From: Candidatus Hydrogenedentota bacterium
Lineage (GTDB): Bacteria > Hydrogenedentota > Hydrogenedentia > Hydrogenedentales > JAEUWI01
NCBI GenBank assembly: GCA_019637335.1
Contig: JAHBVV010000031.1
Coordinates: 1-64,000, forward strand
DNA: 64,000 nucleotides
Direction: 5' to 3'
Below are positions 26,618 through 30,993 of the stretch, one piece after another; positions within the stretch are counted from its first letter, which is position 1, and the number at the start of each line of letters is the position of its first letter. The position numbers were made by a program, and so were the translations under genes. The notes under the pieces were generated by a model. The model worked only from the letters and a program-made list of their open reading frames with translations, searched no databases and was not told where the DNA came from.

Positions 26618-27859
26618 TTATTGTATAACTTTCCACGAAAGAATGCGATAGAACTCCTGCGGCAGCTCCAGGCCGCTGTACACGGGGTTCTGGAACGGAA
26701 GCGCCTCGTTGCCGCCCGGCCAGTCCAGCGTGCCCGGATCCTGCGGCACGCGCAGGACATAGGCCTCGTTGCGGATGAGGATGTCGTCCAGCATGGCGTC
26801 CCCATGGATCCGAAAGATGTGGCTGTGCACCGTGAAAATCTGGCGCAACACCTCGCGTTCGGCGGCAACCTGCGCGGCCTCCAGGTCCTGCGCCCCCCCG
26901 CGCGGGCGGCGGCTTTCCGCCACCGCGAGTTCCACGTGCGTCACGTAGCCGGCCAGGTCGTCCACATTCTGGTAGGCGCCCAGCTCCTCCTGAACGCTCA
27001 GCATGTCCTGGATCATCTGCTCGAAGTTGATATCCTCGGCCATGCCCGCCTCCACCCAGCCAAGACAATAGGCCTCCAGCGCGTCGCTCACGCCCGAATC
27101 CAGATCGATGTAAACCGTGTTGGGGTTGATGCGGCCGATCCAGTCGCCGTGCACGGTGAGGAACTCCGTCACGGGAAGCTGCGGCGGATCCACATCCCGC
27201 GCGCCGAAAAACAGGGCCGGGCTCATCCCCTTAATCAACAGCAGCTCGTCGATCGAGTCCATCGGGCCGTTCTTGCAGGAATAGGGCGTCTCCGCCGCCT
27301 GGTAGAACGCCGTCTCCGCGCCGTTGCCGTCAATTTCGTCGTCCTCGTCGAGCCAGTCGATGATGGCGTCCACCAGCGCCTCGGCGTCCACGTTCTGGCC
27401 CCCGGTGGTGGCCCGCTGCTGAAAAAAGAGTATGAGAGCCTGACGCACTTGTTCGCGTACGAATTTCTCGCCCGTGCTGTAGTCCACCAGGGCGTTCAGA
27501 TTGATTTTCCCGAACTCGTCCGAGATGGTCGCGCGCATCACGGCGTCGTTCAGCGGCTCGAACTCGCCCGGCAGCGCCCACGAACTCAAGCGGCTGTCCG
27601 CCGGGCTGGCCGATCCGTCGGCGGCGCCCAGCTCCGATTGCAGGCGGTCCGTCTCCAGCACGCTCAAGCCCTTGTATACCGCCGATCGCGCGGCGAGGCG
27701 CGCCTGAAAATCATTCCCGCTGTTCAGCGAATACGAGGCCTCCACCTGCGCTTCATACGCAAACTCCACGACCAGCACCGTGAGCAGCACGACAAACAGC
27801 AGCGTCAAAATCAGCGCGACGCCTTCATTCCGCTTCCGTGTCGTTGCTACCCTTCGCAT
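26618..27859 (-). CDS. gspK: GspK, T2SS tip minor pseudopilin
   Basis: The protein has 413 residues, a normal size for GspK, from the ATG at 27859 with AAGG upstream. The leader RKRNEG^VALILTLLFVVLLTVLVVEFAYEAQVEA lacks Glu at +5, as GspK does. It contains KINLNALVDY, DAIIDWLDEDDEIDGNGAE (a calcium-type acidic loop) and SIDELLLIKGM, then RINPNTV, the hallmark helix-hairpin-like segments of the family. Known role: caps the I-J-K tip complex and helps insert pseudopilins. The heptamer repeat array lies between the preceding gspJ and this gene. Compare the 2,623-residue K-like protein at 6356-14227. Confidence 0.92.
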   Translation of the reverse strand: MRRVATTRKRNEGVALILTLLFVVLLTVLVVEFAYEAQVEASYSLNSGNDFQARLAARSAVYKGLSVLETDRLQSELGAADGSASPADSRLSSWALPGEFEPLNDAVMRATISDEFGKINLNALVDYSTGEKFVREQVRQALILFFQQRATTGGQNVDAEALVDAIIDWLDEDDEIDGNGAETAFYQAAETPYSCKNGPMDSIDELLLIKGMSPALFFGARDVDPPQLPVTEFLTVHGDWIGRINPNTVYIDLDSGVSDALEAYCLGWVEAGMAEDINFEQMIQDMLSVQEELGAYQNVDDLAGYVTHVELAVAESRRPRGGAQDLEAAQVAAEREVLRQIFTVHSHIFRIHGDAMLDDILIRNEAYVLRVPQDPGTLDWPGGNEALPFQNPVYSGLELPQEFYRILSWKVIQ

Positions 27860-27888
27860 CCCATACCTTTCAATACAGCCAACACATC

Positions 27889-28112
27889 TTCACCCTTCAC
27901 CCTTCACCCTCCACCCTTCACCCTCCACCCTCCACCCTTCACCCTTCACCCTTCACCCTTCACCCTCCACCCTTCACCCTTCACCCTTCACCCTCCACCC
28001 TCCACCCTCCACCCTCCACCCTCCACCCTTCACCCTTCACCCTTCACCCTCCACCCTCCACCCTCCACCCTTCTCCCTTCTCCCTTCTCCCTTCTCCCTT
28101 CACCCTTCACCC
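27889..28112 (-). repeat. 32-unit heptanucleotide tandem array between gspJ and gspK
   Basis: There are exactly 32 head-to-tail 7-base units, reading on the coding strand as GGGTGAA (17 units), GGGTGGA (11) and GGGAGAA (4, consecutive near the gspJ side). No unit deviates from these three forms. The first two transcribed units lie inside gspJ and supply its last codons and stop. The array ends 29 bases before the gspK ATG. Because 7 is not a multiple of three, three neighbouring GGGTGAA units put TGA in every frame. Junctions after GGGTGGA create GGAGG, an anti-16S-like motif. The array resembles the short tandemly repeated heptamers known from cyanobacteria in form only. Confidence 0.97.
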
Positions 28113-28942
28113 GCCGCTTCCGCCGCCTGATCGGTGCTCCGGTAGTGGTTCGGGTCGAGAAACTCGCCCAGGACTCCCGAGCCCGCCGGCAGTATCGCCA
28201 CCATCTCCAAATCGAAATCCCGTGTGGGATCGACCCCCGCGGCGCGATCGGCCTCCAGTTGAGACTTCGTTTTCGCCAGATTGATCTGGATCCGTACGGC
28301 CCACGGCAGGAATCCCAGTTCGTCGGAATTCCATTCGGGCGTCCACTCTTCCGCCAGCCCGTCGTAGTACTCCACATTAAAGGAGCGGATCGGGATTTCC
28401 CGCTCCCATACGCCCTCCTCCGAATCCTGGCGCAGCTCGGCGGCCGGAAAGAGCTCGTCCCCGCCGGCCAGAAGCACCAGCGGCTTTTCCGTAATGAACA
28501 GGGTGGTCCCCTCCTGCTCCTCGCGCTCCACGCCATCAAACGTGCGAAACAGGCCCTCGCCCTCGCCGCTGCCGTCGTCGATATAATATTCGACCAGCTT
28601 CACGATACCGGGCAGCGACTTCGCCCCGGACAACGGCAGGGAGGTCGCGAAACGCAGGGTGTCGGCATCGCCGAAGGGGCCCGATCCATCCTCCCCTATC
28701 AGGGCGTATTCCCCGTCCGGCTTGGCGCTGATGGAAGCCAGATCATCGCGAAGCTGGTTCCACAGAAACTGCCGCAAGCGCAGGCTCTCCGAAGCCTCCC
28801 GAGCGATCTCCGCGGTGGTCGCGACCGACGCAAAGCACACGTACACCCCGCCAACAAGCACAACGAGGATCGTCATCGCGACCATGATCTCGATGAGCGT
28901 GAAGCCCGCCTGGGCGCGGCGATATGACCGGGCGCGGTTCAC
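28100..28942 (-). CDS. gspJ: GspJ, T2SS minor pseudopilin
   Basis: The protein has 280 residues. The start is a GTG at 28942 that overlaps the gspI stop as GTGA; GGGAG lies about 12 bases upstream. A longer in-frame extension to 29104 would cover gspI and is rejected. The prepilin motif is YRRAQAG^FTLIEIMVAMTILVVLVGGVY with Glu at +5, followed by LRQFLWNQLRDDL, typical of GspJ. The C-terminus ends inside the heptamer array, whose first two units encode Gly-Glu-Gly and the TGA, so the natural end of GspJ has been set by the repeat. Role: forms the pseudopilus tip with GspI and GspK. Confidence 0.9.
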   Translation of the reverse strand: MNRARSYRRAQAGFTLIEIMVAMTILVVLVGGVYVCFASVATTAEIAREASESLRLRQFLWNQLRDDLASISAKPDGEYALIGEDGSGPFGDADTLRFATSLPLSGAKSLPGIVKLVEYYIDDGSGEGEGLFRTFDGVEREEQEGTTLFITEKPLVLLAGGDELFPAAELRQDSEEGVWEREIPIRSFNVEYYDGLAEEWTPEWNSDELGFLPWAVRIQINLAKTKSQLEADRAAGVDPTRDFDLEMVAILPAGSGVLGEFLDPNHYRSTDQAAEAAGEG

Positions 28943-29355
28943 CGCTGAACTCCCTCTCCCAGCACTTCCGTACTGCTGGTGTGGAACACGTAAAACGTCA
29001 CCGTTTCCTCGTGGCCGTCCGGGCCGCGAAGCATGGCGTTGACCTGGTAGTACGGGATCGGCGTCTCGTCCGAGGCGCCCGTGGGCGTACCCTCGAAACT
29101 CCATGTGTACCCCGCGTATGCGCCCTCGAAATCGCCCGACTCCGAAAGCGTGCCGCTGAGCACCTTGAATTCCGCGTCGCTGACCACGCGCTCGATGAGC
29201 TGGCGCCGCTCCACGGTCGCGGCCATCTCCTCGTGCAGGCGAAGCGCGCTGTAGTGCGTGTTGAGCAGGATAAACAGCGCACCCCCGAGTATCCCGACCG
29301 CCGCGAGCACCTCGACCAGCGTGAAGCCCCCGCGTTGTTGCAGTTCCGGGCGCAT
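28939..29355 (-). CDS. gspI: GspI, T2SS minor pseudopilin
   Basis: The 138-residue length is typical. The ATG at 29355 overlaps the gspH stop (TAATG). The leader RPELQQRGG^FTLVEVLAAVGILGGALFILL has Glu at +5. The helix continues with ALRLHEEMAATVERRQLIERVV, matching the GspI pattern of an 'ER' segment after the hydrophobic helix. It is tightly coupled at both ends, overlapping gspJ by 4 bases. Role: nucleates the tip complex of the T2SS pseudopilus with J and K. Confidence 0.9.
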   Translation of the reverse strand: MRPELQQRGGFTLVEVLAAVGILGGALFILLNTHYSALRLHEEMAATVERRQLIERVVSDAEFKVLSGTLSESGDFEGAYAGYTWSFEGTPTGASDETPIPYYQVNAMLRGPDGHEETVTFYVFHTSSTEVLGEGVQR

Positions 29356-30203
29356 TATTTGCCGTACTCCAGGCCCTGGACCATGCGCGTCCGCGCCTGG
29401 ACTGGATCCCAGATCACGGTATACGCATCGTCGCCGTTTTCGATGTGAAAGGCCACGTGCTGCGACAGGCCCAGCACGCTGAACTCGATTTCCGCCACGC
29501 CCCGCGTCAAATACTCCCCATCGATCTCCACGCCGGTAATCCGGGCATCGCCGCGCGGGCGCATGCGCCGCAGCACCGGGTCCGCCAGCTCCTCCTCTTC
29601 CGGCTCCTCCGCATCCAGAACGAAGGTGTTCTCCTCCCCCAGGATATTGCCGGCATCCGCGAGAAAGTCCGCGTTATGCTTGACGTTCGCCGCGCGCGCC
29701 TCCAGCGCCTTGCGCGTAAAGGCATTGAAGCGATCGTCCATCTGGTAGCCCGCCAGGTCCAGGTCAAACTCCTTGTCGCCCCCCAGCAGGCTGCTCAGCT
29801 CCCCGCCCTGCAACATCTTCTCCGCAAGATCGGCCTTGGAGCGGATCCCCTGATCGCGTAGCGCGGCGAACTTCGCCAGCTGATCCGGCTCTTCCGCGAG
29901 CGCCTTTTCCTCGTCAGTCTCCGGGTAGATCCAGTGGACGGCGAACATCTCCTGGGCATCCAGATCGACCCGCACCACCACGCGCTCGCGCAACAGCGCG
30001 GAATGCGCCATCGCGCCCTGGCCGTAGCCCGCCACATGGCGCGCCGTGCCTTCCAGTTCGCTGAACGCGATCACGGGGATGAGACGCGGCACGGCGATCG
30101 CCGCGATCACGCCAATCAGAAACACCACCACCGACAGTTCGAGCAGCGTGAATCCGGCGCGCCCCGCCGCGCGGGACGGGCTATGTCGGGGTAATTTCAG
30201 CAT
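29355..30203 (-). CDS. gspH: GspH, T2SS minor pseudopilin
   Basis: The protein has 282 residues from the ATG at 30203; an ATG upstream at 30314 would give an abnormally long leader. The signal is RAAGRAG^FTLLELSVVVFLIGVIAAIAVPRL, with Glu at +5. Next comes the GspH-like AFSELEGTARHVAGYGQGAMAHSALLRERVVVRVDLD, where the helix meets the first beta strands. The middle carries a long charged insertion (ADLAEKMLQGGELSS, EEPEEEELADP) that makes it larger than usual. It follows gspG after a 373-base gap filled by a hairpin-rich inverted repeat. The ribosome site is weak, so expression may be lower than that of GspG. Confidence 0.87.
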   Translation of the reverse strand: MLKLPRHSPSRAAGRAGFTLLELSVVVFLIGVIAAIAVPRLIPVIAFSELEGTARHVAGYGQGAMAHSALLRERVVVRVDLDAQEMFAVHWIYPETDEEKALAEEPDQLAKFAALRDQGIRSKADLAEKMLQGGELSSLLGGDKEFDLDLAGYQMDDRFNAFTRKALEARAANVKHNADFLADAGNILGEENTFVLDAEEPEEEELADPVLRRMRPRGDARITGVEIDGEYLTRGVAEIEFSVLGLSQHVAFHIENGDDAYTVIWDPVQARTRMVQGLEYGK

Positions 30204-30343
30204 GGTTCTCAGCCGGGAAGGGAACCGGCGCGGGTCCGCGGCCTCGCTGGTTACGGGTGGAGTTCTGCTATTTCCGATCGGCGAGGACGGGCATGTGTCG
30301 ATTCCCATTAACACGTTGTAACCCTCACCAAAATCTATGGTAC

Positions 30344-30526
30344 GGGCTTTCAGCCCTGGCCGAATTCTTCCACCATGTACCTGAGCCGTTGGCCCAGGCT
30401 GCTATGGGGCGCACCTTCGGTGCTGAAGATGGTTCCGTTTTTTTCAGGGCCGAAGGCCCGATCTATATCAGCATGGGGCAACGCCCCGGGAACAGGGTCA
30501 AAACCTGTGAAGGGCTGGAAGCCCGC
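30344..30526. repeat. six-hairpin inverted-repeat element between gspG and gspH
   Basis: Six short hairpins with three-base loops are arranged symmetrically: 30344-30356 (GGGCT/AGCCC), 30380-30398 (8-bp stem, one mismatch), 30411-30423 (GCACC/GGTGC), 30447-30459 (GGGCC/GGCCC), 30475-30487 (GGGGC/GCCCC) and 30512-30524 (GGGCT/AGCCC). Hairpins 1, 2 and 3 correspond to 6, 5 and 4 in inverse orientation, with centre spacings of 39 and 28 against 37 and 28 bases, and recognisably similar sequence between. The whole is therefore an imperfect inverted repeat about a T-rich centre near 30434. The rest of the 373-base gap (30204-30576) holds no gene. It is probably a non-autonomous repeat element that also structures the mRNA. 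Confidence 0.88.
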
Positions 30527-30576
30527 ACCATCGAATGCCCAAACGAATCATCGGCAATATCCAACAGCACCCCTTG

Positions 30577-30993
30577 TTATTCGCCGCCCATGTCGTCGCT
30601 TCGGATGTCGGCATCCACACCCTGGCCGCCGGCCACGCCGTCCGCGCCATAGGACATGATCACGTACTTGCTGGACCCTTCAATCGTGTACACGTAGGGA
30701 TTGCCCCAGGGATCCGTGGGGATCGATTTCGCGTTTAAGATGGAATCCCCGCTCGGCGGGTTAACCAGGCCGTCAAGCGTTTCCGGGAACTTCTTGAATT
30801 TAATCTTGTAGGCCGTCAGCGCGGTGTCAAACTGCTTGATCTGCGCCTTGGCCGCCGCGATATTGCCTTCGTCCACGGATCCGAGCACGTTGTAGCCCAC
30901 GATCGCCGCGAGCACCGCGATAATCGATATCACCACCATCAGCTCCACCAGCGTAAAGCCCGCATTCCCGCGCCGTTGCCGTTTCTTTTTCAT
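30577..30993 (-). CDS. gspG: GspG, T2SS major pseudopilin
   Basis: The 138-residue length is canonical. The ATG at 30993 has AGAGGAGCAAG upstream, the strongest ribosome site in the operon, consistent with GspG being the abundant shaft subunit. The leader MKKKRQRRGNAG^FTLVELMVVISIIAVLAAIVGYNVLG has Glu at +5. The C-terminus shows the full GspG calcium site: IPTDPWGNPYVYTIEG, then MSYGADGVAGGQGVDADI. It lies 16 bases after gspF and is followed by the hairpin element. Role: polymerises into the pseudopilus that pushes cargo through the secretin. Confidence 0.96.
   Translation of the reverse strand: MKKKRQRRGNAGFTLVELMVVISIIAVLAAIVGYNVLGSVDEGNIAAAKAQIKQFDTALTAYKIKFKKFPETLDGLVNPPSGDSILNAKSIPTDPWGNPYVYTIEGSSKYVIMSYGADGVAGGQGVDADIRSDDMGGE

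Follow-up and report, generated by a model that had tools for sequence, protein, structure and literature searches.

A probable MITE at the gspG stop codon with a putative ISKra4-family helper and a body of hairpin modules related to the flanks of Y1 transposase genes

The window, that is the whole stretch of 64,000 nucleotides analysed here from a contig of a Candidatus Hydrogenedentota bacterium, contains on its minus strand the major pseudopilin gene gspG, followed in the operon by another pseudopilin gene which stands in the gspH position and reaches 21.1 bits only against the gspH model (cutoff 80). An array of six hairpins lies in the spacer of these two genes (Table 1). An earlier note had placed them at 30344-30526, mirrored about a T-rich centre and exactly between gspG and the following pseudopilin gene, and this description was borne out: all six were found within these positions, the hairpin region matches its own reverse complement with 66% identity across about 200 bp, and the insertion is exactly at the gspG stop codon. 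In the left half the stem-loop of H2 is CCTGAGCC-GTT-GGCCCAGG and H3 is GCACC-TTC-GGTGC, while the right half contains GGGCC-GAA-GGCCC as H3' and GGGGC-AAC-GCCCC as H2'. The folding analysis agreed that this set is more than a chance occurrence, since the predicted RNA fold of the hairpin region has an energy of -96.7 kcal/mol against -69.7 +/- 4.6 kcal/mol for shuffled sequences (n=200; z -5.9), and none of the 200 shuffles folded as well.

Table 1. Coordinates of the element, its parts and the adjoining genes in the window
Feature	Position	Strand	Remarks
Next operon gene, gspH position	29355..30203	-	pseudopilin with prepilin N-terminus; TIGR02532 and PF07963 over cut-off
Left target site duplication, 8 bp	30247..30254	.	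CTGGTTAC, 6/8 identical to right copy
Whole MITE	30255..30572	.	318 bp, no genes; from 21 aligned copies, ends checked
Left TIR	30255..30276	+	GGGTGGAGTTCTGCTATTTCCG, differs from family TIR GGGTGCAGTTCTGATATTACCG at 3 positions; chance expectation in window 0
Hairpin H1, left half	30344-30356	.	GGGCTTTCAGCCC
Hairpins H2 and H3, left half	H2 30380-30398, H3 30411-30423	+	Acido-Lenti-1 type module 30380..30424
Central run of 7 T	30438-30444	+	A-run on gsp coding strand
Hairpins H3' and H2', right half	H3' 30447-30459, H2' 30472-30490	-	inverted Acido-Lenti-1 type module 30446..30490
Hairpin H1', right half	30512-30524	.	GGGCTGGAAGCCC
Right TIR	30551..30572	-	minus-strand reading GGGTGCTGTTGGATATTGCCGA, consensus matched with a single 1-base gap
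Right target site duplication	30573..30580	.	CTTGTTAT, overlaps gspG stop codon
gspG	30577..30993	-	major pseudopilin, upstream of element in operon; TIGR01710 97.7 bits, cutoff 88.85

The length of 183 bases given in the earlier note covers the hairpin core, but the true extent of the element is 318 bp, out to its terminal inverted repeats (TIRs). When 21 copies were aligned together with their flanks, conservation was seen to reach far outside the hairpins and then to stop abruptly. The ends of the family are formed by a 22-bp TIR, with GGGTGCAGTTCTGATATTACCG at the left end and the same sequence reverse-complemented at the right, for which 40 matches at no more than 3 mismatches were found in the genome, compared to 0 for the reversed pattern. 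Target site duplications (TSDs) were evaluated in the elements having both ends (n=19), where the mean identity was 0.75 at a length of exactly 8 bp and only 0.26-0.41 at lengths of 4-7 and 9-12. A match of at least 6/8 occurred at the right register in 14 of these 19 elements, and no shifted register had more than 3 such elements. The window copy itself is diverged: besides the 3 mismatches in the left TIR, the gap in the right one and RF01687 scores under gathering, its TSD pair, CTGGTTAC and CTTGTTAT, matches at 6/8 positions (the chance of at least 6/8 being 0.004).

Further copies had to be sought according to the earlier note, and the genome (7.16 Mb, 55 contigs) proved to hold the element's sequence or one half of it at about 40 dispersed places, so it is not single copy and the refuting case described in that note does not arise; this count was derived from 63 match rows, many of them the reverse reading of one and the same place. 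All 20 copies analysed by codon scoring were intergenic, beside unrelated genes, with 13 of the spacers co-directional, 3 convergent, 3 divergent and 1 unclear. The TIR-bearing MITE was not found outside the source species; the sibling genomes G002 and G003 matched hairpin parts only.

It was also proposed to look for a helper transposase, and a candidate emerged on contig C27. This autonomous relative (G000:C27:66515-68063, 1549 bp) has the TIR of the MITE, GGGTGAAGATCTGATATTACCGC, and a TSD which is perfect over 8 bp (ATTATTTG/ATTATTTG), and it encloses an intact ORF of 492 amino acids which marginally exceeds the cutoff of the ISKra4 model NF033572 (206.1 bits, cutoff 205) and gave no hit against Pfam. 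It exists in one copy in its own genome, homologues of its transposase are present in the sibling genomes, and beyond the TIR it has little in common with the MITE. GGG ends and an 8-bp TSD were seen in the C27 element. Since the ends and the TSD length are common to both, the C27 enzyme is probably the mover of the MITE, on which an ISKra4-family DDE transposase of this kind would act in trans. The suggestion that the hairpins belong to a small non-autonomous element is thereby upheld by TIRs, 8-bp TSDs, about 40 dispersed places and a likely helper. In being short, non-coding, intergenic and dispersed, with a TSD of fixed length and the TIR of an autonomous IS, it resembles the MITEs which are moved in trans by IS transposases, but its body, instead of being a deleted IS, is a pair of hairpin modules belonging to another (Y1) transposase system.

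Regarding the gsp operon, the stop codon of gspG (TAA, 30577-30579) lies inside the right copy of the TSD; the 8-bp target was duplicated at this codon, and therefore the end of gspG is unchanged and its stop is kept. With the element taken away, some 50 bp would separate gspG from the next gene, a length inside the 6-174 bp range of six other genera. In the siblings G002 and G003 the gspG-gspH spacers, and in G002 also the region before gspG, hold other hairpin arrays of the Acido-Lenti-1 kind (L131, G002:C311, 1218-1408 and 2017-2552; L133, G003:C381, 64-652). These were considered as orthologues of the window element and rejected, having only the hairpin units in common with it, and those weakly. 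The sibling G001 carries in the same spacer a second gspG-like sequence (L130/L142, G001:C5:52643-53669), which is 55% identical to the query. From the arrays of G002 and G003 and the second gspG-like copy of G001 it follows that this spacer readily takes insertions in the genus, which could be a matter of tolerance or of mild benefit. A simple repeat was noticed near the pseudopilin genes at window positions 27780-28284; translated as HPSPFTLHPSPFTL, it yields long spurious ORFs.

An alternative takes the hairpins at the 3' end of gspG for a resident regulatory structure of the gsp operon. It would stabilise the gspG mRNA and lower the expression of gspH-K, effects which the earlier note had proposed together with reduced read-through and an excess of GspG. 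The full 318-bp element indeed has a very stable fold on the gsp coding strand (z -4.1), REPs have been reported to stabilise mRNA or to cause termination (PMC6006769), and the unrelated Acido-Lenti-1 arrays in the gspG-gspH spacers of G002 and G003 speak slightly for the same idea. Nevertheless we consider this explanation unlikely, since the dispersed copies stand beside unrelated genes in every orientation, no terminator-like site was found in the window element on either strand, six other genera (more distant relatives) have a gspG-gspH spacer of 6-174 bp without such an element, and a function of this kind would be a by-product of the insertion and not the origin of the element. No promoter-like site was found in it either. 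The T-rich centre was rejected as a terminator for the gsp operon, because it reads as an A-run on the gsp strand. Any effect of the MITE on gsp expression would be incidental.

The body of the MITE could be related to a known motif. In a permissive scan the left module gave 30.6 bits (E 8e-5) and the right one 27.7 bits (E 5e-4) against RF01687, the Acido-Lenti-1 RNA, the two-hairpin structure of which corresponds to H2 and H3 of the window modules. Both values are under the gathering score of 37 bits, so that the Rfam scan of the window at gathering returned no match and the modules are filed as Acido-Lenti-1 type and not as members; several other copies in the same genome score above gathering. 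Ten H2+H3 sequences, partly tnpA flanks, were used to build a covariance model, R1, which gave 63 bits for the left and 59.9 bits for the right module, both sequences being included in R1. Both helices of the motif show covariation. RF01687 is filed as an sRNA gene, whereas here the motif does not stand alone but is embedded in longer ends with three hairpins, both at transposase loci and in a MITE.

These transposase loci contain IS200-like Y1 transposase genes (tnpA). In the own genome of the MITE one such gene (C3:158198-158647) is preceded by one three-hairpin module, and another, on C4, has RF01687 matches above the gathering score on its flanks. In relatives the order H3'-H2'-H1' was observed before tnpA and H1-H2-H3 after it (e.g. 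L070, L071, L072, L073, L087 and L064). R1 was run on 80 tnpA loci from Verrucomicrobiota, Planctomycetota, Acidobacteriota, Bacteroidota, Deltaproteobacteria and others, and matches were counted within 150 bp of the gene: the motif stood upstream on the minus strand at 43 of 75 loci, downstream on the plus strand at 46 of 78, and on both sides, facing outward, at 32 of 73. Its distance from tnpA was mostly 45-75 bp on both sides, the counts declining outward until few remained past 450 bp. RF01687 itself, as the independent Rfam model, gave a concordant result, exceeding gathering on both sides of the gene in Terriglobus albidus (L190), a member of Brocadiia (L194) and one of Deltaproteobacteria (L207). 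About 40% of the tnpA loci (L143-L222) are without a module on a given side, where the hairpins may be diverged or the ends of a different type. Across the genomes of 40 relatives RF01687 and tnpA were both present in 22 and both absent in 12, with 4 and 2 discordant cases (Fisher p 2e-5, the genomes being counted as independent of one another). The homology extends to the window element directly: over 89 nt its right half has 81% identity with the flank downstream of tnpA in the sibling G002 (L064), and its left half is 77% identical to a flank of tnpA in L147 (Verrucomicrobia). One half of L007 agrees at 78% over 91 bp with the flank of the own tnpA at C3:158198-158647, a relationship between inverted REPs and tnpA flanks which is characteristic of REPINs.

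In the tnpA proteins H55, H57, Y115, Q119, H122 and H123 are invariant (11 sequences), which gives HuH together with Y---Q--HH. This combination defines TnpAY1 subclass 1.2, described as generally lacking terminal structures of the IS200 type and as occurring mostly in Cyanobacteria and Bacteroidetes (PMC6006769). The present tnpA carries this signature; unlike in that description, however, sets of three hairpins flank it. TnpAY1 class 3 is known from Planctomycetes and Acidobacteria and has atypical structures, with about 600 copies in Solibacter (PMC6006769), thus it resembles the present system in its taxa and in the many dispersed structures that flank a Y1 gene. Its motif is Y----Q, NHVH and W[TA] (PMC6006769), while the present tnpA has Y---Q--HH and mostly DHVH and WQ, and assignment to class 3 was rejected on this ground. 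With the REP/REPIN-RAYT and IS200/IS605 systems it has in common a Y1 HuH gene between inverted hairpins and dispersed doublets in one genome; it differs from them in having three hairpins per side, and no GTAG or GTGG foot was noticed by eye in the 21-copy alignment.

IS200-type Y1 enzymes are not known to generate a TSD. An alternative in which the element would be a REPIN that the Y1 transposase mobilises, its TIRs and TSDs being a later addition or a coincidence, has to be weighed against this. The homology of the hairpins to tnpA flanks is in favour of it, as are the doublets of similar size in the siblings: in G002, where 234 exact H2 hairpins were counted, the motif often appears as H3'-H2'-H1'-short core-H1-H2-H3 (14 read), that is as the tnpA locus minus the gene. 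The window family shows the inverse order, H1-H2-H3 followed by H3'-H2'-H1', thus (+,-) and not (-,+), enclosed within ISKra4-type ends; REPINs are without TIR or TSD, whereas both are present here. The conserved outer ends, the 8-bp TSD, unexpected for a Y1 enzyme of the IS200 kind, and the autonomous element with the matching TIR are DDE hallmarks, and we regard the REPIN origin as very improbable. Direct mobilisation of the window element by the Y1 tnpA was likewise considered and discarded on account of the outer TIRs, the 8-bp TSD and the inverse hairpin order. Converging pairs of the motif also adjoin tnpA loci elsewhere (e.g. L169, L170 and L196), therefore the MITE likely began as such a pair captured between TIRs.

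Taken together, we assign a probability of roughly 0.9 to the reading that the window element is a DDE-type MITE with a probable ISKra4 helper, the body of which consists of two inverted hairpin modules of Y1 tnpA flanks. By this model a MITE with 22-bp TIRs and 8-bp TSDs landed at the stop codon of gspG, where the duplication of the target left the gene its stop. Its six inner hairpins are two inverted copies of the module H1-H2-H3, H2 and H3 forming the Acido-Lenti-1 motif, and these modules share homology with the flanks which, on either side and facing outward, border IS200-like Y1 transposase genes (Y---Q--HH) of several phyla. Around tnpA the modules most likely serve as single-strand DNA hairpins which the Y1 transposase would recognise and bind, and two of them, arranged inversely with the H3 ends inward, became the body of the MITE in the source species.

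It should be emphasized that, because of its outward-facing position mostly 45-75 bp outside tnpA in several phyla, Acido-Lenti-1 is most likely not an sRNA but the DNA structure that forms the end of a Y1 transposase system. It also appears likely that it represents the paired DNA ends of an unrecognised multi-phylum Y1 system with REPIN-like offspring, recruited as the body of a DDE-MITE in a lineage related to Hydrogenedentota. That it is a genuine trans-acting small RNA, of which the window would hold two gene copies, is very improbable: Rfam classes it so, both helices covary and a table of Weinberg et al. 2010 (PMC2864571) gives it as a probable RNA found in Acidobacteria and Lentisphaerae, graded 'y' for RNA and not cis-regulatory, but REP DNA hairpins can give the same covariation, the hairpins of G002 stand mostly in doublets, and a favoured distance and outward orientation on either side of Y1 transposase genes from several phyla are against it. 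A text search of the literature, largely without subscription papers and preprints, found neither a link between Acido-Lenti-1 and transposases nor an ISKra4 MITE.

If this interpretation is true, an orphan 'sRNA' of Rfam would be explained as mobile DNA, and the annotation would change wherever RF01687 is called. A clear set of candidate ends would be supplied for a Y1 subclass reported to be generally without IS200-type end structures, and transposon ends of one type would be seen travelling with a transposition system unrelated to them (DDE). Furthermore the insertion at the gspG stop codon would offer a natural experiment, with the short-spacer relatives for comparison.

A second MITE-like family was also recognized in the genome, with the ends GTAACACTTTAGCGG...ACTTC (L031:2118-2428 in G000:C3, and inside L124-L127). 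Its ends look IS66-like, it has an apparent target repeat of 7-8 bp, and it is nested several times within copies of the window MITE, these copies having a length of 560-884 bp.
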